Positions 1 to 28,921 of a DNA stretch of 45,302 nt are shown piece after piece (the stretch's first letter is position 1; every line of letters starts with the position of its first letter). The notes under the pieces are model-generated. The model was not told the origin of the DNA. It did no database searches and worked only from the letters and a program-made list of their open reading frames with translations. Origin of the DNA: a virus. Position numbers and translations under genes: made by a program. The stretch covers positions 1-45,302 of IMG/VR virus record IMGVR_UViG_3300021087_000023. One strand, 5' to 3'.

Positions 1-1221
1 GACTCCAATTTTAGATCCTTCAATTACCGTATTGGTAATAACATTATAGGCCATAGTGTCTATGTAAATAGCACATCTACAGTTCTGGATATAGCAGGTA
101 TCAATTTTTGTTGAGGTGTTTACCCCTGCAGCTGAACCAGCTTTAAATTTAATTCCATCTCCTACTGCCTTTTTGATAATAACCATCTCAAAGACAGAGT
201 TAATAGGCTGTTCAATCCTTAAGGCATCTTGAGGAATGTTATTCATAAAGATCCTTTTAAAAGAGTATCCAGAAACAGCTCTAGATCTACCTCCAGCAGT
301 CTTAATTCTTCTGAATCTAATACCTCCTCCATAGACTTGATCGATTCCCTGGCCGAGGAATCCCATATCTTCTATTACGGCAGCTCTAACATTATCACAA
401 TCTATAAATTGTACATTGTTTATAGGAGAACCATCTTCTAGACTAAACAAAATTATATTCGATCCTCCTCCTGTTGGAGTTGTTACAACTGTAGCACCAT
501 CTGGAGCAGACTCATTTACACCACTAGAGTTCTTGTAGCGTAGTACTTTAAGTCCATCATTGTTATCAATAGCTTCTACCAGTTCAAATGTTCCACTATT
601 GTCAGACTCTCCAGTATTATCTACTCTAATTAAATCAGCAGGTCTATTTAGCAATAGCTTTTCGCCTGCAGGTGCTGGAGTTATAATCTCCATTACTCCG
701 TTTCCTATATCAGTAATAGATGCTATTTCTGTTTCGAAATATTGTTGATCAGGCATCTGATCTCCAAACCATCTCATACCTGTATAGAAAGGAAGTGTGT
801 CTGTAATTTTGTAGTATCCTGCAGGAAAGTAAACCGGTAGGTTGTTTTCTCTAGCGTTCTCAATAGCGTTCTGTATCGGCAACGTATCATCTGCTTTACC
901 ATCTCCTGCAGCACCAAAGCTTCTGACGTTTACTCCATAAGTAATTAAATCTAAAGCAGCCTGAGTTTGAGTAATTAACGCAGTGTTAGTTTCTACTTCT
1001 TGTTTTGTGGTGTCTATAGAATTAGTATTACTATTAGCTTTACTGTCAACAGCGGTTATAGCATTTGCATTTGCAGCTACGCCCTCAGCATTCTGTATAA
1101 TGGAGTCATCATGATCATTTACAATTTGCTTAACCTGATTGGCATCTTCAGCTTTCCACTTGGTTGAGTCATCTCCAGGTATCTGCGAACCTGTCTTGTC
1201 TCCGTAATTAATTTTAGCCAT
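1..1221 (-). CDS. Tail spike with pectate-lyase-like beta-helix, C-terminus cut by window
   Basis: Partial gene: 407 codons from its ATG to the window edge, open throughout. Residues 1-85 are polar and rich in Asn, Thr and Ala, like the virion-anchoring part of many tail spikes. From about residue 88 the sequence VRSFGAAGDGKADDT, followed by AIENA and PVYFPAGYYKI, is the classic start of a pectate-lyase superfamily right-handed beta-helix. Short irregular beta-rich repeats rich in Ile, Val and Asn follow to the edge. In phages this fold binds or cleaves host surface glycans; catalytic residues cannot be assigned because the gene is truncated. It starts 10 nt after the stop of the giant adhesin and is probably co-transcribed with it. 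Fold call is firm; polysaccharide-degrading activity is inference. Confidence 0.85.
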   Translation of the reverse strand, partial: MAKINYGDKTGSQIPGDDSTKWKAEDANQVKQIVNDHDDSIIQNAEGVAANANAITAVDSKANSNTNSIDTTKQEVETNTALITQTQAALDLITYGVNVRSFGAAGDGKADDTLPIQNAIENARENNLPVYFPAGYYKITDTLPFYTGMRWFGDQMPDQQYFETEIASITDIGNGVMEIITPAPAGEKLLLNRPADLIRVDNTGESDNSGTFELVEAIDNNDGLKVLRYKNSSGVNESAPDGATVVTTPTGGGSNIILFSLEDGSPINNVQFIDCDNVRAAVIEDMGFLGQGIDQVYGGGIRFRRIKTAGGRSRAVSGYSFKRIFMNNIPQDALRIEQPINSVFEMVIIKKAVGDGIKFKAGSAAGVNTSTKIDTCYIQNCRCAIYIDTMAYNVITNTVIEGSKIGV

Positions 1222-1231
1222 TTGAATTTAT

Positions 1232-4200
1232 TTATAAGTTAAAGTCTAGATTATAATCGAATACCTCTTTACTACAAGGAGATAATATTTTGTAAGCTTC
1301 TATCCATGCTGGAGTATCTTGATCGTAGGTAATGTAGCTAGCATTTGGATCAGATGGCCAACAAGATAAATCTTGATTAAAAACCGTAGCTCCTCTGAAC
1401 ATGTTCAAATAATCTTGGTTACTAGATACATCCCAATCATCTAAAGGATGGTTGAAAGAACTACAATTAAAGAAGAAGTATGCAAGGTCAGTAACACCTT
1501 CAACGCTTATGTTTATTGGCTGGTCAAAGTTAGAACATCCGGATAAAAGTCCTCTGAGACTAGTTAGTCCTGTCAAGTTCCATCCGTCTATACTCTGGTT
1601 AAATTGAGATCCATTATCGAACATCCCCAGGTTACCATTTGCGCCTGTAAAATTCCAGTTGCTAATATCTCCTACATTACCGTGTACAGGTGCAAATAAT
1701 CCACCAAAGCACTTAGCAAAATTCCACACATTAGAAGTATCCCAGTTATTGAGATCTCCACTGAACGGACAATCATTAAACATACTAGCCATGTTCTCAA
1801 CTTTAGACACATTCCAATCATTAAGGTATTGGTCAAAAGTACTGGCTTGCCAGAACATCATAAAAGTCAAAGTAGCATTACTCATATTCCAATCTCCTAT
1901 AGGCTGATTGAACACAGAGTTGCCTTGGAACATAGAGCTGAAGTCAGATCCTTGGCCTACATCCCAATTAGTTATGTCCCAGTTATAATTACCCATAGCG
2001 AAACAAGATGTAAAATGGGTTACATTAGACACATCCCAATACTCTAATCCTGGATCTCCAAGGAACGTAAAAAAGAAGAAGGTAAACTTTAGATTGGTAA
2101 CACTTGAAGTGTCCCAAGAGCTAAGATCTATAGCTTCAGAGTACTCATTATTGTTTGGGAAAAGATTTTCAAGAGAATCTATTCCGGTTATAACCAGCTT
2201 AGACAAATCTTGCTTATTAGCTATAGCTGTATCTAAACCTGCTCTATCTACTAAAGTATAGTATACTCCATCAAGTATAGCCGTAGTTCCAACAGGAGTA
2301 TTTTCGTAAGCCTTTATTGTTACACCGTTCTCGTCATAGTAGAACCTATCTATAATACAAGTAGACTGTACTTTCCAATACCCATACCAGCTATCTGCAC
2401 CGTTGTCATAATTTACCATAGGTATAGATGGGTCGATAGCCCAGCATGACAAGTTCTGGTTAAATGATGCAGCAAACTGGAACATGTAACTCATCTGAAC
2501 TGCATTTGATACATCCCAGTTCTTAATGTCTGTATTAAAAGCTGTAGCCTGGTTAAACATGGCGTAGAAATCTGTACAGTTTGAAGTATCCCAATAGGAT
2601 AAATCACCATTAAAAGAACTTGCTCCTTGGAACATAGCCTCGAATGTAACTGCAGCTGAGGTATCCCAAGCTGATATGTCATCTACAAACCCATCATTAT
2701 TGTAGAAAATAGAACTAAAATCTTTTATACCGGTAGTACAGTATTGAGAAGCATCCCCGGAAGGGCCCTCGCCATTATTATAGATCATGTCTCTATCTGC
2801 TAGAGTAATAGTAGTTCCATTGAATACATCAGTATGTCCTACAGGAGTATCAGCAAAAGCTTTTACAGTCACTCCATTTTCATCCAGGTAAAATCCTACT
2901 CCAGGTGGATTTACAGGTTCTTCGTAATCGTCTAAAGTAAGGGTGAAGTATTCAGGATTCCATGCATAGGCTCCACTATGGTATCCACCACTATTTAGCA
3001 TACTAGGTAGCTCCCATCCACGTAAGTCAGCATTAAATTCTGTAGCTAATAAGAACATAACTGACATGTCTGTAGCAGCTAAAGGTCTCCAATTAGCTAT
3101 GTCAGTAAATCTGTAGTTGGAATTGTAGAAAGCACCTGCTATGTTTGGAGTCTCACTAACGTCCCAAGAACCTATCTTAGGATCCGTTATAAAGTTCACA
3201 TTAAAGAATGCGTTGAAAATAGTCTGAACACCTTTAACATCCCATGCACTTAGATCTGAATTAAGGTTTGCATTAGAGAACATGCTCATCATCCCTAGTG
3301 GAGAGTTCTTAACTTGTCTAACGTCCCAGTTCTCCAGTCCGGTAATTTCAAATCCGAATGGGTAAAAACTTGGTATAGGACCAAAAGCACTAAAGAATCC
3401 ATCGATTACTTTAGTTGTTACTATCTGATCAAATGTATACTCTCCTCCTACTAGTAAAGAGAACAATGAGTAAGGATCTCCAAACCCATATCCATTACTA
3501 GCTACTATCCTCATCTTACCGTCGAACATTCCAGTATCTCCACCAGAAGCCTGGTCTATGGCCGCCAAAGTAATACCATTGTCTAAGTAGTAGAATGGAG
3601 TAACATACACCACTTTATCTATAACTACTCCGTTAGGATCTATCTGTATACATTCTCCATTACTAATGGCAAAGAACCCATTATCACCATCAAAGGTAAC
3701 TGAGTCAAAGTAATTAGTGAAGATCACATCTCCTATCAAAGGTTCATCCTGTTCTCCGTCATGAGCTAGCCACGATATAGGATTAGGATTAGGTATATAA
3801 TTAGAGTCGTTTCTAGTCTGATCTATGTAGAACCCTATAAGATCAACTCCAAACTCCCCTCCCCAGTCCAGTGGTACTTCAGGCCAGTTTATAGCATTAT
3901 TAGTACCTGAAAAAGCTCCCTCTGTATTTGTTAGATTAAGAGTTAAATCTCTCCAGAACCTAGGTATAACACCCTCTATTGTTGGGATATCACTCCATGC
4001 GTATTTAACATTCTCTAGGGAGTTCATACCATCTAGATAATCTTTAGGTATACTCAAACCACCATACCTCCAGAAAGCCCTCTCCATAGTTGTCAATTCA
4101 GACAGATGATTTATAGAAGGTAAAACAGTACATTTACTGTTCTCAAAAGAGTAGAATAAACTATTTATTTTTGTATTGTTTATCAAGAAATCTTCGTCTA

Positions 4201-6418
4201 TACCGTTTACTAACCTATTAGCTCCTCTAAACAACATAGTAATATCAACTAGCTCAGTACAGTTCTCCAAAAGAGTGCTAGGAACAGTATTGATTGTAGC
4301 TTCTTGAAATGCAGAATTCATTTTAGTTACATTAACGCTATTCTTAAATATTTCTCCTGCATACTCTATCTGTTTACACCTATAGAAAAGCCTGTAAAAT
4401 GAGTCTACAAGAGGCATATCATAAAACAAATCCTCTGGAATAGTAATAATATCAGAATTACTAAAAACTCCTTCTGCTTTCGTTACTTTACTGAAGTCTT
4501 TAAATATATTTGCAGGAACTTCTGTTATTGGAGTAGTACTAAATAAGTAAGATATATTCTCCATTAAGACACTTTCTTTGAGAAAATCTACAGGAACTGT
4601 TTGTATAGAAGTTCTATTAAGTAAGAAATCAACTCTCTTTAATTTAGGCAAATCTCTAAAGAGAGTGTCTTGTATCTCAGTAATAGGAGTGTTGTATAAA
4701 GCAGTTGCAAGACTAGTTACATTTGGGAAATATCCATTAAAGAAATCAATATCTACTTCTGATACTAAGGTATCTCTAGCCAAATCCCCTAGATCTATCT
4801 CATTAGTTTGTTTAGTACCTCCAAACCAAGATGTTTTTAGCTTGGTTATCTTTGTACCTCTAAAAGCTTGCAGTCCTCTTGACTGTATCTGAAACCCTTC
4901 AAAAATACCATCGGGTATATCTGTAATTTTTATAGCCTCACAACAAAATCTCTCAATATCTATTTTACCTGTTCCTCCGTTCTGTGGACTACTTAGAGAG
5001 TTTTGTAAAATGTCTCTAGGTATTTCTGCTATATTCCATTGAGAGAACAAGTCTCCTCTACCTGGCTCAAACTCTACCTTACTAAAGAACTGATCATCTA
5101 TTTCTAAAGTGATATCATCGTAAGTTCTATAATCCCTTCCAAGAGCATTTAAAGAGTAAGTTCCCCATTTACCGGTAATAGAATGAGCATTATTTAAAAG
5201 ATTAGGTGAAATGTATTTAACTCTCCAAGCCTCATCTAAAAATGAATTTACTGATACTGCTCTTACACCATCCAACCAGTCATCCGGTATAGCTTCTATA
5301 GACCTAACTCCATTTAATGAGTAAAATATAGATAAACCTGTATCTTCATATTTTATAAACTCAGTAAATCCTGTAGGAAGAGCCTCTAAAGAGTAAGCAT
5401 CTCTCCAATTAAATAGGTATCTTGTTTTATCGTAAGTATAATCTTTTTCCCCGTTAAACTTAGTACCTCTTTTAGAGTTTAATAGACCTGTTATTGCTCC
5501 ATCGGGTATAGATTCTATGTAGTGACATTGGTAAAAATCGTAAAAGATGTTACCTAGATCTCCCCACTGAGTTATTCTTTTTACTGTATCGTTAGTAGGA
5601 CTTTGATTAAACCCTACTTGGTTAAGTCTTCCTGTGAAAGTAACTTGGTAAGAACCTGCTGTAGCATAGGTCTTTGTAAAGCTTAAACCAGGTGCATAGT
5701 TGGAATCGTTAAGAGTATCTGTAGTACCATCCCCCCAATCCGCTACTGCATTGTTACCAAATTCTAGAGGATGGTTAGACCCAATGCTGTTAGTAAGGAC
5801 AAACTCAAAATTATCTGAAGGTATATCCACTTCCATTACGAAAGAGTAATTGGCTGCTATCTGGCCTTTATCTATTATTACTCCTTGATCATTAATCTGT
5901 AACCAAGTGTACTCATCAAATCCATAAAACTTCGAGCCACCTTGGAACAGGTTCTCAGTGTATACATCAGTAAATAGCACATCATTAATCTGTGGTATAC
6001 TTACTAGGTCCTTAACGTACATAGTGACATTAGGGAATACACCTAGAACTTGCTCTTTAGTGTCATGTGGATAGTTATCCATGACAAATCTGTCTGGAAT
6101 TACTTGTTCTTCCTCAACTTCTAACTTAACCTCTTCTATTAGAGTTATTAAGTACTGCCAGCCTATGGAAGGATTTTTTCTAAGAACTGCAAATCTACCG
6201 TTTACACCAGGTCCTGCTCCACAAACTGCATATTTTTTAGATTCTTCAAAAAATAAAGAGACTATCGTCTCTACAGGAGCATTTATTTCGTCGAACTCTT
6301 GCAAAGATTCAGCCAGAGATAAAAAGTTAGCACTAGTTATAACAGGCTGACCTGCACAGGATAACATAGGATCCTGAGCCCAGTCTAGTGTAGATAAGAT
6401 AGAGTCTTGAGAGTTCAT
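1232..6418 (-). CDS. Giant PKD/BspA/DUF285 repeat adhesin, likely tail fibre
   Basis: 1728 residues from the ATG at 6418; a TTG two codons upstream is less likely. Residues 1-180 are a unique N-terminal part, perhaps the virion anchor. A PKD-like beta-sandwich follows at about 185-275 (DWGDGTTDT, then TYATAGSYQVTF). About 280-900 is an irregular BspA-type leucine-rich repeat region with the recurring pattern IPxxxF. From about 1020 to 1700 there are three blocks of DUF285 repeats (FN..l..WDvSnv..m..MF), separated by linkers of the type ENGVTxKAxxxTPVGxT. Flavobacterial surface proteins share this linker-plus-DUF285 layout. No signal peptide or sorting domain is seen, which fits a virion protein. 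Its place beside the tail spike suggests receptor binding. Repeat families are clear; the role is inferred. Confidence 0.85.
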   Translation of the reverse strand: MNSQDSILSTLDWAQDPMLSCAGQPVITSANFLSLAESLQEFDEINAPVETIVSLFFEESKKYAVCGAGPGVNGRFAVLRKNPSIGWQYLITLIEEVKLEVEEEQVIPDRFVMDNYPHDTKEQVLGVFPNVTMYVKDLVSIPQINDVLFTDVYTENLFQGGSKFYGFDEYTWLQINDQGVIIDKGQIAANYSFVMEVDIPSDNFEFVLTNSIGSNHPLEFGNNAVADWGDGTTDTLNDSNYAPGLSFTKTYATAGSYQVTFTGRLNQVGFNQSPTNDTVKRITQWGDLGNIFYDFYQCHYIESIPDGAITGLLNSKRGTKFNGEKDYTYDKTRYLFNWRDAYSLEALPTGFTEFIKYEDTGLSIFYSLNGVRSIEAIPDDWLDGVRAVSVNSFLDEAWRVKYISPNLLNNAHSITGKWGTYSLNALGRDYRTYDDITLEIDDQFFSKVEFEPGRGDLFSQWNIAEIPRDILQNSLSSPQNGGTGKIDIERFCCEAIKITDIPDGIFEGFQIQSRGLQAFRGTKITKLKTSWFGGTKQTNEIDLGDLARDTLVSEVDIDFFNGYFPNVTSLATALYNTPITEIQDTLFRDLPKLKRVDFLLNRTSIQTVPVDFLKESVLMENISYLFSTTPITEVPANIFKDFSKVTKAEGVFSNSDIITIPEDLFYDMPLVDSFYRLFYRCKQIEYAGEIFKNSVNVTKMNSAFQEATINTVPSTLLENCTELVDITMLFRGANRLVNGIDEDFLINNTKINSLFYSFENSKCTVLPSINHLSELTTMERAFWRYGGLSIPKDYLDGMNSLENVKYAWSDIPTIEGVIPRFWRDLTLNLTNTEGAFSGTNNAINWPEVPLDWGGEFGVDLIGFYIDQTRNDSNYIPNPNPISWLAHDGEQDEPLIGDVIFTNYFDSVTFDGDNGFFAISNGECIQIDPNGVVIDKVVYVTPFYYLDNGITLAAIDQASGGDTGMFDGKMRIVASNGYGFGDPYSLFSLLVGGEYTFDQIVTTKVIDGFFSAFGPIPSFYPFGFEITGLENWDVRQVKNSPLGMMSMFSNANLNSDLSAWDVKGVQTIFNAFFNVNFITDPKIGSWDVSETPNIAGAFYNSNYRFTDIANWRPLAATDMSVMFLLATEFNADLRGWELPSMLNSGGYHSGAYAWNPEYFTLTLDDYEEPVNPPGVGFYLDENGVTVKAFADTPVGHTDVFNGTTITLADRDMIYNNGEGPSGDASQYCTTGIKDFSSIFYNNDGFVDDISAWDTSAAVTFEAMFQGASSFNGDLSYWDTSNCTDFYAMFNQATAFNTDIKNWDVSNAVQMSYMFQFAASFNQNLSCWAIDPSIPMVNYDNGADSWYGYWKVQSTCIIDRFYYDENGVTIKAYENTPVGTTAILDGVYYTLVDRAGLDTAIANKQDLSKLVITGIDSLENLFPNNNEYSEAIDLSSWDTSSVTNLKFTFFFFTFLGDPGLEYWDVSNVTHFTSCFAMGNYNWDITNWDVGQGSDFSSMFQGNSVFNQPIGDWNMSNATLTFMMFWQASTFDQYLNDWNVSKVENMASMFNDCPFSGDLNNWDTSNVWNFAKCFGGLFAPVHGNVGDISNWNFTGANGNLGMFDNGSQFNQSIDGWNLTGLTSLRGLLSGCSNFDQPINISVEGVTDLAYFFFNCSSFNHPLDDWDVSSNQDYLNMFRGATVFNQDLSCWPSDPNASYITYDQDTPAWIEAYKILSPCSKEVFDYNLDFNL

Positions 6419-6431
6419 AGTCAAAATAGTT

Positions 6432-8122: not shown

Positions 8123-8147
8123 CTTATTTGTTTTTGGTTAATAATTT

Positions 8148-8172
8148 GTGGAAGTGGGGGAGTCGAACCCCC
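8148..8172 (-). ncRNA. tRNA T-arm-like hairpin in a 224-nt non-coding gap
   Basis: On the minus strand a perfect 5-bp stem GGGGG/CCCCC closes the canonical T loop TTCGACT (fits TTCRANY) and is followed by an acceptor-like 3' strand ACTTCCAC. No matching 5' acceptor strand (TGGAAGT or wobble variants), D arm or anticodon arm could be found back to 8346. It is therefore not a complete tRNA. Possible readings are a tRNA remnant, an RNA-processing signal, or an attachment-site-like tRNA 3' fragment. There is no U tract, so it is not a standard terminator. The rest of 8123-8346 is AT-rich, with no gene I can support. Confidence 0.45.
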
Positions 8173-8346
8173 TTTTACTCTATAATGTGTTTAGTCTAAA
8201 AATTCTCAACTTACATATAATCGTAATCGTAGTCATTAGAATTATAACGTGCCGTTTAAACTATATCATATCTTACTCTAGAATAAAATATGAATTACAT
8301 TAATTAGAACTCTACCTATGTTCTTAAGTTCCTTTCTTCCGTTTAT

Positions 8347-11815: not shown

Positions 11816-12966
11816 TAACTGTCAGAATTAGCTCTAGTTATACGCTCATGAGATTCATTAATAGCATCTTGAACTTTAGTATAGTTGCTATCTCCTAATT
11901 TCTTGATGATAGACTCGATACGATCTTCAGATGAAGCTACATAATCAGAACTATGGTAAGTACCAGAATTCTTAACATCATCGATATCAGCAATTGCATA
12001 AGGGAATAATGCATCAGTTCTTAGCGCACTACCCTGGTCTTGGAAAGATAGTACATCAGAAGGATTCACAAAACACAATAAAGTGTTGTTATTGTCCCTT
12101 CTGTAACTCTCAATGTATTGCAATCCACCTATGTAAAGACCACCACCACCAAAGGTGTTGTTTAGGTTACGTAAAGCTTTTTCAGGTAAGTACTGAACCT
12201 CACCAACTCTATAAGTATAGCCTAGTTTACTACCTGAAAAGAATAGGTCACCATTTCTACATATAGCAGGAGTGAATACTAGTTCTTCTGATACTTTAGG
12301 TAAATCTAAAGCATCTTCTACAAGAACCTCTCCAGTAACCTCATCTACAGCTCCAGGTAGAGTAGCATACTTAGGATTCTTAACCTTGATGTAATTACCT
12401 GGGTTCTCCTCGTCCTCTATGATCTCATACTTCCAATCAACTAAATCCACTACTTTGTAAGTAGCTAGAAGACCCTCTTGAGTAATAGAGATGTCTTGGA
12501 AAGTAGACATATTACGAGCTTCGTCACTCGTAAAGCCCTCATCCATCAACTTGTTTGCAGACTCCATATCTACCCAAGTATTTGTGATGTAAGTGTAGAA
12601 ATAATCTATCATCTCTGCATTAACTCTAGGATTAGATATAACTCTTATCCAGAACTTCTCCATAGGTGCAGTATCGGTACCATCATCTATAAGTTCTTCT
12701 AAAGCTTTACCCATTTCTTCAGATAAAGTGATCTCTGTACCCGTAACTCTGTATCCTTTACTAACTGGGTTGTACTCCAGAAAGTTAAGCTTAGTAGCGT
12801 TGTAGACTTTATTAGCTTTCACTAAAAACTCTTCTAATTTCTCTTTAGAAAAATCAGCATCAATTGCTGTTAATTCCTTTGAATTTTCCTCAGAATAAGG
12901 TGTATTAAATGGTGTACCATTAATAACTCCTACGATTCTGTCTTGTACTCTTCTTTTAATTAGCAT
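11815..12966 (-). CDS. rIIB: rIIB-like protein
   Basis: 383 residues. The central ITQEGLLATYKVV and the later GLYIGGLQYIES followed by NTLLCFVNPSDVLSF match the typical rIIB pattern (a self-contained ATYK/AYK block, then GLHV and a KVNPxDVVS-like strand). In T4, rIIA and rIIB act together at the membrane to block exclusion by lambda Rex; the mechanism is still unclear. Here it follows the rIIA-like gene with a 7-nt overlap, the same adjacency as in T4, which strengthens both calls. The N-terminal 90 residues are divergent. Confidence 0.8.
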   Translation of the reverse strand: MLIKRRVQDRIVGVINGTPFNTPYSEENSKELTAIDADFSKEKLEEFLVKANKVYNATKLNFLEYNPVSKGYRVTGTEITLSEEMGKALEELIDDGTDTAPMEKFWIRVISNPRVNAEMIDYFYTYITNTWVDMESANKLMDEGFTSDEARNMSTFQDISITQEGLLATYKVVDLVDWKYEIIEDEENPGNYIKVKNPKYATLPGAVDEVTGEVLVEDALDLPKVSEELVFTPAICRNGDLFFSGSKLGYTYRVGEVQYLPEKALRNLNNTFGGGGLYIGGLQYIESYRRDNNNTLLCFVNPSDVLSFQDQGSALRTDALFPYAIADIDDVKNSGTYHSSDYVASSEDRIESIIKKLGDSNYTKVQDAINESHERITRANSDS

Positions 12967-15608
12967 AATAATAAATTTGATAGTTTGTTAATTGATTCTG
13001 TAACTGAGTCACTATATATAGAGTAATCTGTCATACCTTTGTACAGCACCTCCATAGCGCTTTTGTTTTTGTTTACGTGGTCTGCCCACTTAGCTGTGTC
13101 ATCTGTAACATCTTGATCATAAGCTACAATTTGAGTTATTCCACTAATATTGAATTGTTTTAGTAATTCATTAGCAGCTTCAAAGTCGTTTGCTTTGATA
13201 AGATCTTGCGCCTCACACATAATATCTGTCATATCCATAACAAATTCTAGAGCTTCATGGAAAGCATCTCCACTGCCCCAGAATAGTCTTCCTATGAATT
13301 CCTTCATAGTCATGATATCACGAACATCAGGACTATTATCTTTTTGAACCCAAGTAAGGCATGTAGCTTCATTCGGTAATAGGAAATTAGCTAGAAAGTT
13401 TAAAGTATCTTGTTTAAGTACTTTAGTTCTTATTAGGTTCTTAAGCTTAATAGTGTAGTCTAAAGTTTTAAAGTTCTTGGCTACCTTGTAAAAAGTAGCT
13501 AGTATCCTAAACTCAGGACAAACAGTAAGTACTCCATTATCTACGTTAAATAGATAGGATTTGTACTCTCTTATTATATCAAGGTCTGCCTCTAATATAG
13601 AGTTGTAATCTGATTTACTGGCTACCATTAAGGTATCAAAATTTGTCCTAAGACCAAATCCAGCTCTAATTTCCCTAAGAACTCGTGAAAGCATTTGGTT
13701 AGAAGAGTCAAACATAATGATAGGTCTTTCAGTATTAACTCCGGAGACAGAATAGGTTATGTACTTATCTTCTAGGCCAGACACAGGAATTTCCCATCTA
13801 GTTATAGTAGGATTAGTAACTTTAACAACAGAGCTATTACTAATGTATCCTTCTGCGTATGACTTACTGTAAACTTTAGGATAAATAAGCTTATTCTGTT
13901 TACGTAAACGAGCAGCTTCCTGCGCATCATTGTAAACATCATTTTCAGTAACTTCTTGCTCATCTTCTATATCATCTGCGTCAGTTCCTAAGTTACCAAA
14001 TTCAGCGTCATCCACATTAAAGTTTGCTACTGAGTCAAAGTAGTCATACCATGGTTCTGCATCTTCCGGGTGATCTACAGCCCATCTAGATATAGTGGAC
14101 AATCTTACATAGATAAAAGTCTTCAGCTTGTAGGTTTCATACAAGTATCTTACTTTTCTCTTAGTAAGAGGCGTCTCATCAGCTATAACAACTTTCATAC
14201 CGCCAAATTCCTCAAACCTAGATATTGAAGTTTTACTTACATAAGATGTTCTACTGTTCTGAACATAAGATACAACTTGTACTCTAGCTCTATCTAAGGT
14301 TTCGAAGTAACTGCTGATAGAATTGAATTCTATAGCTATAACTTGTCCATGAGGCATTACTACAGTAGTCTTAGACTTGATCTCTGCAGAATTCAAGAAG
14401 CTAGTAAAAGCACCTAAAGGTGACATAATACTGTACTTGCTGTCCATCTTGCTTTTATAGTCAGTTGCAACAGTTATAAGATCCTTAGAAGACTCTGCAG
14501 TTTTACCTGCTGCAGTCAAGAACTTATGTGCTGATAACTTAGTCTTCTCAATAGCATCTAAGATGGTTGTCTTGGTCTTATCAGTCCACTTCAAAGATTC
14601 CCTTGATTGGTTAATGTCTACATCAGTAGCTTTAACTTTAATACCCAGGGCACCGTTTCTACCTTCCAGTTCTAGTTCATTCCAACTAATAAGTCCATAA
14701 TTAATACCGTCAACAACGATATAAGGCTTAGAATACTCAGAATTTCTCTGTATGATGACATCATTATCCTCATACAGGTTCTGGTTATCGATCAAACCTC
14801 CTCTTTGGTTGCCATATTCAGTGTAGCTAAAGTCTATCAAGTTGTTAAATGCAGAGAATTGCTTGTAAATAGCATCTATGTACTTCTTCTTGTTGTGCTT
14901 TTTAGCTTCTATGGATAAAGTAACACCATTATTTAGTGTTGTAGGCTCCCAGTGAACTTCTCTGACGCTTTCTGTACCATCAGATAGTTTGACCTTCCAT
15001 TTCTCTGTATAGCCGTTAGGGTTCTTCTGTGTTACTGATTCATAATCGTGTTTAAAGATCATGAAAGTAGTTTGGAAGCCATTGTATCTTGTTTGCATAG
15101 TGTAGTAATCTACACCTGTAGCAAGACCTGATTTGGCGCCAACACCAAACTTACCTATCAAGTTCTTAAGATTTCTCTTAGAACTGTAACCAAGTCTGAA
15201 GTAACCTCTTAATCGTTCTCCTCCTAATCCTACACCATTATCTGTGATAGTAAACAAATCTCTACCATCATCCTTATCTTCATAAGTAACATAGATAGAG
15301 TTGCTCTCACTCAGATAATTAGGGTTATAGTACTCTCTATCAAAAGATGAATCTTTCAGTAATTTACCGTCGTCTTCTCTTTGTAGAAAGTGGTCGCTCT
15401 CAGGGGCTCCAGACAATATAATATCTTTTGCAATCTCTTTCTCTCTGTTTGAATCTATACAGTTAGAAATAGTTTCTCTTACAAAACTTCGGATTGGATA
15501 AGAATAAATGTCCTCTTGCATTGCTTGAAAGATGAGGTCTTTTGCACCTTCATCGATCTCTTTTAGTATACCAGGTCTTTCATCCTGATCTATGTGTAAT
15601 TCTGCCAT
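12960..15608 (-). CDS. rIIA: rIIA-like GHKL ATPase
   Basis: 882 residues, longer than T4 rIIA (about 725). The N-terminal 250 residues carry a GHKL (Hsp90/gyrase/MutL) ATP-binding fold: N box RETISNCIDS (Glu45, Asn49, Asp52), G1 box DNGVGL at 123-128, G2 box GKFGVGAKSG at 152-161. A GHKL ATPase directly followed by an rIIB-like gene is the rII arrangement. An acidic linker rich in Asp and Glu (near residues 540-560) separates two halves. It probably defends the infection against host or prophage exclusion, by analogy with T4. It overlaps the primase gene by 19 nt. Confidence 0.85.
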   Translation of the reverse strand: MAELHIDQDERPGILKEIDEGAKDLIFQAMQEDIYSYPIRSFVRETISNCIDSNREKEIAKDIILSGAPESDHFLQREDDGKLLKDSSFDREYYNPNYLSESNSIYVTYEDKDDGRDLFTITDNGVGLGGERLRGYFRLGYSSKRNLKNLIGKFGVGAKSGLATGVDYYTMQTRYNGFQTTFMIFKHDYESVTQKNPNGYTEKWKVKLSDGTESVREVHWEPTTLNNGVTLSIEAKKHNKKKYIDAIYKQFSAFNNLIDFSYTEYGNQRGGLIDNQNLYEDNDVIIQRNSEYSKPYIVVDGINYGLISWNELELEGRNGALGIKVKATDVDINQSRESLKWTDKTKTTILDAIEKTKLSAHKFLTAAGKTAESSKDLITVATDYKSKMDSKYSIMSPLGAFTSFLNSAEIKSKTTVVMPHGQVIAIEFNSISSYFETLDRARVQVVSYVQNSRTSYVSKTSISRFEEFGGMKVVIADETPLTKRKVRYLYETYKLKTFIYVRLSTISRWAVDHPEDAEPWYDYFDSVANFNVDDAEFGNLGTDADDIEDEQEVTENDVYNDAQEAARLRKQNKLIYPKVYSKSYAEGYISNSSVVKVTNPTITRWEIPVSGLEDKYITYSVSGVNTERPIIMFDSSNQMLSRVLREIRAGFGLRTNFDTLMVASKSDYNSILEADLDIIREYKSYLFNVDNGVLTVCPEFRILATFYKVAKNFKTLDYTIKLKNLIRTKVLKQDTLNFLANFLLPNEATCLTWVQKDNSPDVRDIMTMKEFIGRLFWGSGDAFHEALEFVMDMTDIMCEAQDLIKANDFEAANELLKQFNISGITQIVAYDQDVTDDTAKWADHVNKNKSAMEVLYKGMTDYSIYSDSVTESINKLSNLLLC

Positions 15609-27501: not shown

Positions 27502-27696
27502 CTAATCTTCATCTAGTTCAGTCCATTCTTCTTCAGTACAGCCTGTCATTATAAACTCCCTGTCTTCTGCAGGTACTTGAGGCATTGCTTCTTGTATCAG
27601 TACTCCTGATTGCCACAGATCTAGTTGCTCTTGAGTGACATTAATTTCTCTTGTTCTAGTTCTACCAGATAGCATACTTGTCTTAGTGATCTGCAT
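27502..27696 (-). CDS. Conserved small phage protein (SGRTxTREINVTxEQL type)
   Basis: 64 residues. The pattern SGRTRTREINVTQEQL, then PAEDREFIMTGCTEEEW, recalls a small acidic protein found in many unrelated phages, with DREFI.TG.T.EEW near its end. The function is not known to me. The ATG overlaps the TAA of the upstream gene (TAATG). It is soluble with no membrane segment. Confidence 0.75.
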   Translation of the reverse strand: MQITKTSMLSGRTRTREINVTQEQLDLWQSGVLIQEAMPQVPAEDREFIMTGCTEEEWTELDED

Positions 27697-28109
27697 TACT
27701 TGAAGATATTAAATCCTACACTTAATGATGCTCCTAAGTCTGTGTTGTATCCTGCACCAATGTTCATCCATGGTGTTAGATTACCATCAAAGTATACACC
27801 AACACCCATACCAGTTACAGAGTAACTACCAGTTACACTAAAGAACTTTGGTGTGTTAGAACAGTCTTTGATAGCTACTCTTGGTCCAACCTCTAGAGAG
27901 TGGAACTTGTAGTCTCCATTCCAATCTTTGATATCAGATAGTAAGACTCTTACTTTTAGGTTCTGACCATTTATCTCAACACCATGTAGGTATTGTTCTG
28001 TGTCGTTCAAGACTTCAGGGCTCAATGTGTAGTTGATACCAAGTCTTTGTGCATTACTGCTTGTAAATAATCCGATTGCTAATACTAAGGTTAATAATAC
28101 TTTTTTCAT
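27696..28109 (-). CDS. Secreted small outer-membrane-like protein
   Basis: 137 residues. A clear Sec signal peptide (MKKVLLTLVLAIGLFTSSNAQ, cleavage near residue 20) is followed by alternating Gly/Ser/Tyr/Val strands. The C-terminus ASLSVGFNIFK ends in an aromatic-Lys strand, as in small outer-membrane beta-barrels. The strand pattern (TGSYSVTGMGVGVYF, INIGAGYN-like) fits a barrel or periplasmic lipocalin-like fold. A phage-made envelope protein could block superinfecting phage or change permeability; that is inference. Confidence 0.7.
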   Translation of the reverse strand: MKKVLLTLVLAIGLFTSSNAQRLGINYTLSPEVLNDTEQYLHGVEINGQNLKVRVLLSDIKDWNGDYKFHSLEVGPRVAIKDCSNTPKFFSVTGSYSVTGMGVGVYFDGNLTPWMNIGAGYNTDLGASLSVGFNIFK

Positions 28110-28157: not shown

Positions 28158-28424
28158 TTATAAGAACCTCATGAATTGAAATTCTTCTTCTGGAATGCCT
28201 ATCATAATGGCTATTCGCTTGTTGTATTTCTTTATAGCACGTTCTAGTGTGAACAGTCTATAAATTGTCCATAATCCTAGACCACCTAGTGTAAGGTAGA
28301 ATAAGACTTGTTTGCCCATTTGTCCTAATGATCCATAACTCCATCCAAGGAGTAAGAACGTTAGCCAAATAGTTGTAGAGTCAGCTTTAGCTCCTCTGTA
28401 GATCATCATTTTAGATACTTCCAT
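28158..28424 (-). CDS. Small membrane protein
   Basis: 88 residues from the ATG at 28424. A start 26 codons upstream would run through the terminator at 28447-28480 and is rejected. Two membrane segments are visible (TTIWLTFLLLGWSYGSLG and KQVLFYLTLGGLGLWTIY). A charged cytoplasmic tail (LERAIKKYNKRI) follows. The Gly-rich short segments resemble TM2-type small membrane proteins, but no family is proven. Confidence 0.6.
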   Translation of the reverse strand: MEVSKMMIYRGAKADSTTIWLTFLLLGWSYGSLGQMGKQVLFYLTLGGLGLWTIYRLFTLERAIKKYNKRIAIMIGIPEEEFQFMRFL

Positions 28425-28446: not shown

Positions 28447-28480
28447 CAAAAGAAAAGAGGCACTCGTATGAGCACCTCTT
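28447..28480 (-). terminator. Rho-independent terminator
   Basis: Minus-strand hairpin AAGAGGTGCTC-ATAC-GAGTGCCTCTT (11 pairs including two wobbles) followed by TTTTCTTTT. It is 23 nt before the next ATG and downstream of the tRNA-like minihelix. Confidence 0.88.
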
Positions 28481-28566
28481 GTAGATATGTTTTCAAGCGC
28501 ATTAAAACAAACTAAACAACTGTTACGCTTGGGAATACATAAAACCCGTCCTACCCCTAGAACTGC

Positions 28567-28610
28567 GAGTCAGTAAGGATTCGAACCTTACAAGCCACCA
28601 CGGCTGACTC
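28567..28610 (-). ncRNA. tRNA-like minihelix (acceptor plus T arm only)
   Basis: On the minus strand the 44-nt element reads, in order: GAGTCAG; a 13-nt linker; TAAGG; T loop TTCGAAT; CCTTA; CTGACTC. The 7-bp acceptor stem and 5-bp T stem are both perfect and can stack coaxially, as in a tRNA. The T loop fits TTCRANY. The 13-nt linker can form only a 3-bp GCC/GGC mini-hairpin, so the D and anticodon arms are missing. The 3' side continues GCAG, so CCA is not encoded. It sits in the 224-nt gap 28425-28648 between two membrane protein genes. A minimal RNase P or RNase Z substrate is a possible role. Confidence 0.6.
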
Positions 28611-28648
28611 CACCAATCAATCAAAGTTAAATATAGGGCTAATATTAA

Positions 28649-28921
28649 TTAATCTCTATTATTATTGTATGATTTATATGATTTTCCATCAATATATACC
28701 CCTGGTACTGAAGAATCGTTAGCATATTTCTCTGCTTTCTTGCGTTCTTTGTATTTCTTACGGGATACGTATTGTTTGTGTTTCTTATCTAGTAGCTGAT
28801 CATATGTTATGCCCTGTCTACTTGCTTGTTCTTTATACTGTGCCTCGATCTTGGCTGCTCTACCTACTGCTATAAGTAGAGCTACACCAATACCAAGAAA
28901 TGCAAGGAGTAAGCCTTCCAT
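28649..28921 (-). CDS. Small membrane-anchored basic protein
   Basis: 90 residues. One N-terminal membrane segment (about 3-19, GLLLAFLGIGVALLIAVG) is followed by a strongly basic helical cytoplasmic part (KKHKQYVSRKKYKERKKAEKY). An Asn/Ser-rich end follows. It could anchor a nucleic acid or protein at the membrane. The ATG overlaps the stop of the 38-codon gene by 1 nt (TAATG), so translation is probably coupled. Function unknown. Confidence 0.6.
   Translation of the reverse strand: MEGLLLAFLGIGVALLIAVGRAAKIEAQYKEQASRQGITYDQLLDKKHKQYVSRKKYKERKKAEKYANDSSVPGVYIDGKSYKSYNNNRD

Follow-up and report, generated by a model that had tools for sequence, protein, structure and literature searches.

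Structures that resemble tRNA and serve as RNA-processing signals are already known from organelles and from animal long noncoding RNAs, and the stacked acceptor–T helix is recognized by both RNase P and RNase Z. In plant mitochondria, the t-elements mark mRNA ends or intergenic cuts, and their processing has been shown experimentally. In animal nuclei, the mascRNA and menRNA (RF01684), which derive from the 3' ends of MALAT1 and NEAT1, are freed from a long precursor through cleavage by RNase P and RNase Z. Phage T4 encodes rnaC (species 1 RNA), a stable RNA of 139 nt that carries a T arm, has no known decoding function and adjoins tRNA genes. Full-length phage tRNAs have also been drawn into host defense: the variable loop of tRNA-Tyr is cut by Septu EcB88 and retron-Eco7, and phage-encoded tRNA-Tyr has been suggested to act as a decoy or a supplement (PMC13096335).

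The DNA that we analyzed, hereafter the window, is a stretch of 45,302 nt from a virus (IMG/VR record IMGVR_UViG_3300021087_000023). The phage families matched by its terminase and portal count Cellulophaga phage phi14:2 (Crassvirales) and Flavobacterium phages among their named relatives, and the window therefore represents a crAss-like phage of Bacteroidota. Its minus strand also encodes a 1730-aa protein with six DUF285 stretches, repeats of the Mycoplasma type (1232–6424), a spore-photoproduct-lyase-like protein (PF20903; 7081–7920) and an RIIA-like protein (12960–15608). Between two minus-strand ORFs, the strand reads GAGTCAG-CCGTGGTGGCTTG-TAAGG-TTCGAAT-CCTTA-CTGACTC from 28610 to 28567, 44 nt that are followed by a G. 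The parts of this element are as follows.

28567–28610, minus strand: tRNA-like minihelix consisting of acceptor, short linker and T arm (sequence, shuffles, covariance model R1)
28604–28610, minus strand: 5' strand of the acceptor, GAGTCAG, pairing 7/7 with 28573–28567
28591–28603, minus strand: 13-nt linker that contains TGGT, with a possible mini-arm (sequence and folding)
28574–28590, minus strand: T arm, with a stem of 6 bp if G48–C66 is counted (pairing and folding)
28567–28573, minus strand: 3' strand of the acceptor, CTGACTC, with G28566 at the discriminator position and no encoded CCA (sequence)

All seven pairs of the acceptor and all five of the T stem are Watson–Crick, and the T loop is canonical. 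We assign the element to the minus strand because TTCGAAT is a canonical T loop only there; a plus-strand reading was rejected, as its loop would be ATTCGAA, which is non-canonical. The first-pass annotation had the coordinates, the letters, both perfect stems and the 13-nt linker right, and the strand was missing from it. Its phrase "early-region gap" holds for the gap, with "early" resting on gene order.

A perfect 7-bp acceptor combined with a perfect 5-bp T stem and a TTCRANY loop occurs once in the real window and in none of 400 dinucleotide shuffles. With a looser definition of the minihelix, Markov surrogates of phage loci totaling 2.26 Mb gave no match, as against 20 distinct short-linker elements in the real loci, five of which lie inside tRNAs called by ARAGORN. 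As far as such composition models go, these counts refute chance as the source of the inverted repeats, and we give that explanation practically no weight. The element was also not recognized as a tRNA, in agreement with the earlier view that it lacks the D and anticodon arms: ARAGORN called 0 tRNA genes in the window, Rfam at its gathering cutoff returned nothing at the element, and the Rfam tRNA model RF00005 did not match it at E ≤ 10. Of the parts that define a canonical tRNA, the element has the acceptor and a T arm with a TTCRANY loop, and the cloverleaf with D arm, anticodon arm and anticodon is absent. The best Rfam family at E ≤ 10 is mascRNA-menRNA (RF01684; E = 0.009), whose score of 23.9 bits is far under the gathering value of 42.5 and implies neither membership in the family nor a common origin. 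Covariance model R1 scores the element at 67.5 bits, the window being one of the three training sequences of that model. A tmRNA (RF00023) was considered and rejected, the window having neither an Rfam tmRNA match nor an ARAGORN tag ORF. When the gap was read by eye for a permuted tRNA, in which the 3' half precedes the 5' half, no second GAGTCAG was seen 3' of the element.

The surroundings of the element in the window are co-directional with it.

28649–28921, minus strand: upstream ORF of 90 aa, with no family (ORF list)
28622–28629, minus strand: TAACTTTG, a weak match to the Bacteroidota −7 box TAnnTTTG (motif)
28548–28563, minus strand: weak hairpin GTTCTAGGGGTAGGAC, 3 nt past the acceptor, 5 bp including one G–U (read from the sequence)
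28455–28480, minus strand: strong hairpin resembling an intrinsic terminator, AAGAGGTGCTCATACGAGTGCCTCTT then TTCTTTTG (sequence)
28158–28424, minus strand: downstream ORF, 88 aa from its preferred start (the listed ORF begins at 28502)

The likely order along a transcript would be the 90-aa ORF, the minihelix, the hairpin and the terminator. We rejected TAACTTTG as a promoter: it is not significant by itself, no TTG −33 box was seen with it, and the window contains many such octamers. Among the explanations weighed here, we find it most likely, though still tentatively, that this tRNA-derived, anticodon-less minihelix is a processing signal for host RNase P and RNase Z, one of the two roles that the first-pass annotation had suggested, the other being a decoy for tRNA enzymes. 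The minihelix, a 6–7-bp acceptor stacked on a 5–6-bp T stem, would be built into a minus-strand transcript between the 90-aa ORF and the terminator-like hairpin. The 5' cut, before G28610, would be made by host RNase P, and the 3' cut, after 28567/28566, by RNase Z or another nuclease that trims tRNA 3' ends. The upstream message would thereby gain a fixed 3' terminus, and the excised piece would be a small and stable tRNA-like RNA, an outcome that may benefit the phage; in several of the lineages described below, the downstream message would keep a hairpin at its new 5' end. We count against a processing signal that the window's own 3' hairpin is weak and that no close relative has the element. 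The hairpin at 28548–28563 fails a test that admits Watson–Crick pairs only, and is the counterpart of stronger hairpins in other lineages.

The computed fold also counts against a processing signal. The linker segment GCC-GTGGT-GGC is able to form a mini-arm, (A)GCC-GTGGT-GGC(U), and the lowest-energy fold, at −15.3 kcal/mol, combines an outer 5-bp acceptor, a 4-bp mini-arm (AGCC-GUGGU-GGCU) and a 6-bp T stem closed by G48–C66. The strict 7 + 5 minihelix folded alone reaches −10.8 kcal/mol, so it is not the computed minimum. Directly before the T arm, the linker ends in GGCTTG, which resembles the end of the variable arm of tRNA-Tyr. Ten IMG/VR contigs carry GGCTTGNNAGGTTCGANTCCT; ARAGORN calls a tRNA there in five of them, in every case tRNA-Tyr (5/5), and the remaining contigs are non-canonical, one being the Enterococcus phage element described below. 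The window element can be read from its letters as an acceptor, a Tyr-like variable arm and a T arm from which the D and anticodon arms are gone.

This reading suits the main rival explanation, in which deletion removed the D and anticodon arms of a tRNA gene, probably of the tRNA-Tyr kind, and what is left has no present function. A single recent deletion would spare both stems, and GGCTTG at the linker end points to tRNA-Tyr, a mark that holds among the ARAGORN-called tRNAs with the pattern. We think such a relic somewhat improbable, and it is the main rival because the window copy is without a close homolog and because broken tRNA-like genes abound in the tRNA regions of phages. The genes adjoining the element (27696–28109 and 28649–28921) have no homologs in IMG/VR, blastn of the 2 kb around it gave no match among named phages, and an exact 25-mer from it is absent from IMG/VR. 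The nearest relative with a long contig (94.8 kb, 67% terminase identity) has no such element and no T arm there, and a contig with an identical terminase stops before the site. The absence of the element from the nearest relatives therefore indicates fast turnover, which we count in favor of a relic. A full tRNA at this site in related phages, which the first-pass annotation would have taken as a sign of decay, was not found in the nearest searchable relatives; decay keeps some likelihood for the window locus, which has no close homolog.

Odd or broken tRNA-like genes are also numerous in related and unrelated phages, again in keeping with a relic. More distant crAss-like relatives carry canonical tRNAs and, elsewhere, several odd tRNA-like genes whose anticodon arms are expanded or missing, and one of them has a tmRNA. 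Covariance model R1, run on 48 phage records that include crAss-like relatives, returned one odd element and otherwise tRNAs or partial matches to the T arm. We list separately a set of tRNA-like genes at L059/L074, L060, L077, L071, L078 and L068, mostly from crAss-like relatives (L078 came from the pattern scan), in which the acceptor and T arm are paired and the anticodon arm is expanded, replaced or missing; several keep a tRNA-Leu-like D arm (TGGCGGAATTGGTAGACGC). The tmRNA lies on a crAss-like phage contig (L063, 1149–1525, plus strand; Rfam 61 bits), with an ARAGORN tag ending in ELELAA.

A short blastn query with the element returned a 23-nt identical block in Enterococcus phages of the Schiekvirus type (EFDG1, EFP01 and others). 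The unannotated element there reads AGGTAAG CAGTAAGGGCTTG TAAGG TTCGAAT CCTTA ATTACCT A. Like the window element, it is 44 nt long, has the layout 7-13-5-7-5-7 and carries the same block of GGCTTG and T arm, and an ungapped comparison of the two gives 32 identical positions out of 45. Both partners differ at acceptor pairs 1, 2 and 5 (three compensatory changes), and the one pair that Schiekvirus fails to keep is pair 7, with 7:66 mismatched. Both the phage and its host are unrelated to those of the window, and, unlike the window element, the Schiekvirus element lies inside a tRNA cluster with its own sigma70-like promoter just upstream (TTGACT...TACTAT). This setting, which is not between protein genes, counts against a processing signal. 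Present in 31 records, the Schiekvirus element has a 63-nt core that is identical in at least 26 of them while the promoter spacer varies, which speaks against a functionless relic; its conservation is modest evidence of constraint, and only modest because the flanks are also very similar. In EFP01, the 3' part of a ROOL RNA (L155, 1–272, plus strand; 97.7 bits, gathering 99.1) lies upstream of the minihelix.

To follow the T arm further, we searched IMG/VR with pattern TTGTAAGGTTCRANTCCTTA, in which the T arm is fixed and the acceptor is unconstrained. It gave 28 matches in 27 contigs, of which ARAGORN recognizes one as a tRNA (tRNA-Leu), leaving 27/28 that are not recognized tRNAs. Six lineages among these matches combine a linker of 9–26 nt with a matching acceptor: Schiekvirus, L224/L226, L217/L228, L221a, L221b/L214 and the L203 group. 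Together with L229/L173, reached through the GGCTTG pattern, and the window, they form a set of eight. Across this set, 46 of 48 acceptor cells are Watson–Crick, with the qualification that the shared T arm is in part a product of the search and that we picked the acceptor register for best pairing; permuting the 3' strands among lineages gave a mean of 23 and a maximum of 44, and 0 of 20,000 permutations reached 46. The paired stem substitutions that the first-pass annotation had named as a test in related phages were thus found, but between unrelated ones, both in these cells and in the three acceptor pairs that differ from Schiekvirus. C66 stands opposite G48 in seven of the eight lineages and extends the T stem to 6 bp, and the usual partition is 6 acceptor and 6 T-stem pairs, 12 in total as in a normal tRNA. 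This common partition with G48–C66 is not expected of a simply deleted tRNA, and intact acceptor pairing in short-linker minihelices of about eight lineages likewise argues against a relic.

We define the class as an acceptor of at least five Watson–Crick pairs, a linker of at most 30 nt and a T arm in an element that is not a recognized tRNA, and the window element falls within it. Despite the 45-nt ungapped similarity between the window and Schiekvirus, its members were found through a shared T arm and may have arisen separately from tRNAs. The window element is real and tRNA-derived, and is one case of a recurrent, unannotated feature of unrelated phages that probably has a function. Further short-linker candidates from the 2.26-Mb scan lie on the plus strand at L224 7706, L165 6036 and L171 9893, with linkers of 29, 27 and 16 nt, respectively. 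As a separate observation, Seunavirus phages and Klebsiella phage Marfa carry unannotated tRNA-like RNAs (L157, L158, L160 and L163, ~530–625; L159, ~545–625) with GCTTAA...GTGAGGAAT and a T arm of TAAGG in common.

Placement between genes in several lineages fits a processing signal. The minihelix of L228 directly abuts the stop codon that closes an 88-aa ORF, beginning at the very next base, and is followed by the next ORF; that of L224 starts 8 nt past the stop of a 117-codon frame, and that of L214 starts 31 nt past a 214-aa ORF. The next ATG past the acceptor is at +43 in L224, +47 in L217/L228, +50 in L214/L221b and +54 in L221a. A Watson–Crick hairpin of 5–8 bp follows the acceptor after 2–3 nt in Schiekvirus, L224, L221a and L221b/L214 (chance 6.9% per site); the same test gave no hairpin 3' of the acceptor in L217 and L229. 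The hairpins, too, agree with the processing-signal proposal, in which cleavage is predicted.

Conservation of the acceptor also fits a role in trans, which we count against a processing signal. In this third-ranked explanation, which we hold to be unlikely, the element would mimic a tRNA in minimal form and so titrate or mislead host factors that bind tRNA, for example a defense nuclease that cuts the variable arm of tRNA-Tyr; a decoy of this kind suggests itself because the parts retained are the acceptor, a Tyr-like variable arm and the T arm. The linkers of the window and Schiekvirus both end like tRNA-Tyr variable arms, and this likeness, together with the published defenses that cleave tRNA-Tyr, is the best mechanistic support for a decoy (PMC13096335). 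The sigma70-like promoter just upstream of the Schiekvirus element, and, in the window, the TAACTTTG that ends 11 nt before the element and the terminator that follows it, would suit a free RNA. The GGCTTG arm is absent from other lineages, however, and several of them are intercistronic without an evident promoter of their own, both of which speak against a decoy.

Integrating elements often carry the 3' half of a tRNA, which would be consistent with an attP site that captured the 3' end of a host tRNA. The 3'-end sequences TAAGGTTCRANTCCTTACTGACTC and GGCTTGTAAGGTTCGAATCCTTA, however, are both absent from the genomes of 84,980 species, the 5' acceptor strand is present although an attP has no need of it, and the phage is crAss-like, with no integrase among the searched subset of its proteins; we consider an attP highly improbable.

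Elsewhere in the window, in the gap 8123–8346 and on the same strand as the minihelix, we observed another element.

8149–8340, minus strand: second tRNA-like RNA, ~190 nt, with a 5-bp acceptor (GGAAG/CTTCC), a D-like hairpin, a long arm and a T arm GGGGG-TTCGACT-CCCCC (sequence and folding)

Of 200 shuffles, 199 fold less well than this RNA (z = −2.98), and neither ARAGORN nor Rfam at gathering detected it (8340–8149). Two tRNA-like RNAs thus stand in the window, which lacks any canonical tRNA. In Tenacibaculum phage Larrie, an odd unannotated tRNA-like element (L202, ~625–730, plus strand) has a 3' end like that of this second RNA.

More generally, we consider it possible, if short of probable, that unrelated phage families share minimal tRNA mimics, each a 12-bp acceptor–T stack, typically 6 + 6, without an anticodon, that punctuate polycistronic transcripts by means of host tRNA-processing enzymes and in some phages also act as free decoy RNAs against tRNA-targeting defenses. 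We found no report of an anticodon-less minihelix class of phages in the literature searched. If the proposal is true, it would give phages a new way to set mRNA ends with host enzymes, account for some of the gaps that annotation leaves in the tRNA regions of phages and offer minimal substrates of natural origin for both RNase P and RNase Z. A decoy role, if true, would link these elements to current work on phage defenses that cut tRNAs.

Among the known systems, the phage tRNA-Tyr genes that counter Septu and retron-Eco7 are, like the window element, phage-encoded with a Tyr-type variable arm joined to the T arm, but are full tRNAs with an anticodon (PMC13096335). T4 rnaC shares with it a phage origin and a T arm, but is much longer and has no short linker. 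The mascRNA and menRNA, the best Rfam match, are likewise tRNA-like, an acceptor and a T arm being combined with a degenerate remainder; they are animal nuclear RNAs, however, and a small D-like hairpin and a longer arm persist in mascRNA, and the release by RNase P and RNase Z that is established for them would be predicted for the window element. The t-elements are likened to it by description: they are organellar, and in the window, too, a tRNA-like fold lies between co-directional genes, which would share a single transcript in which the minihelix would be processed.
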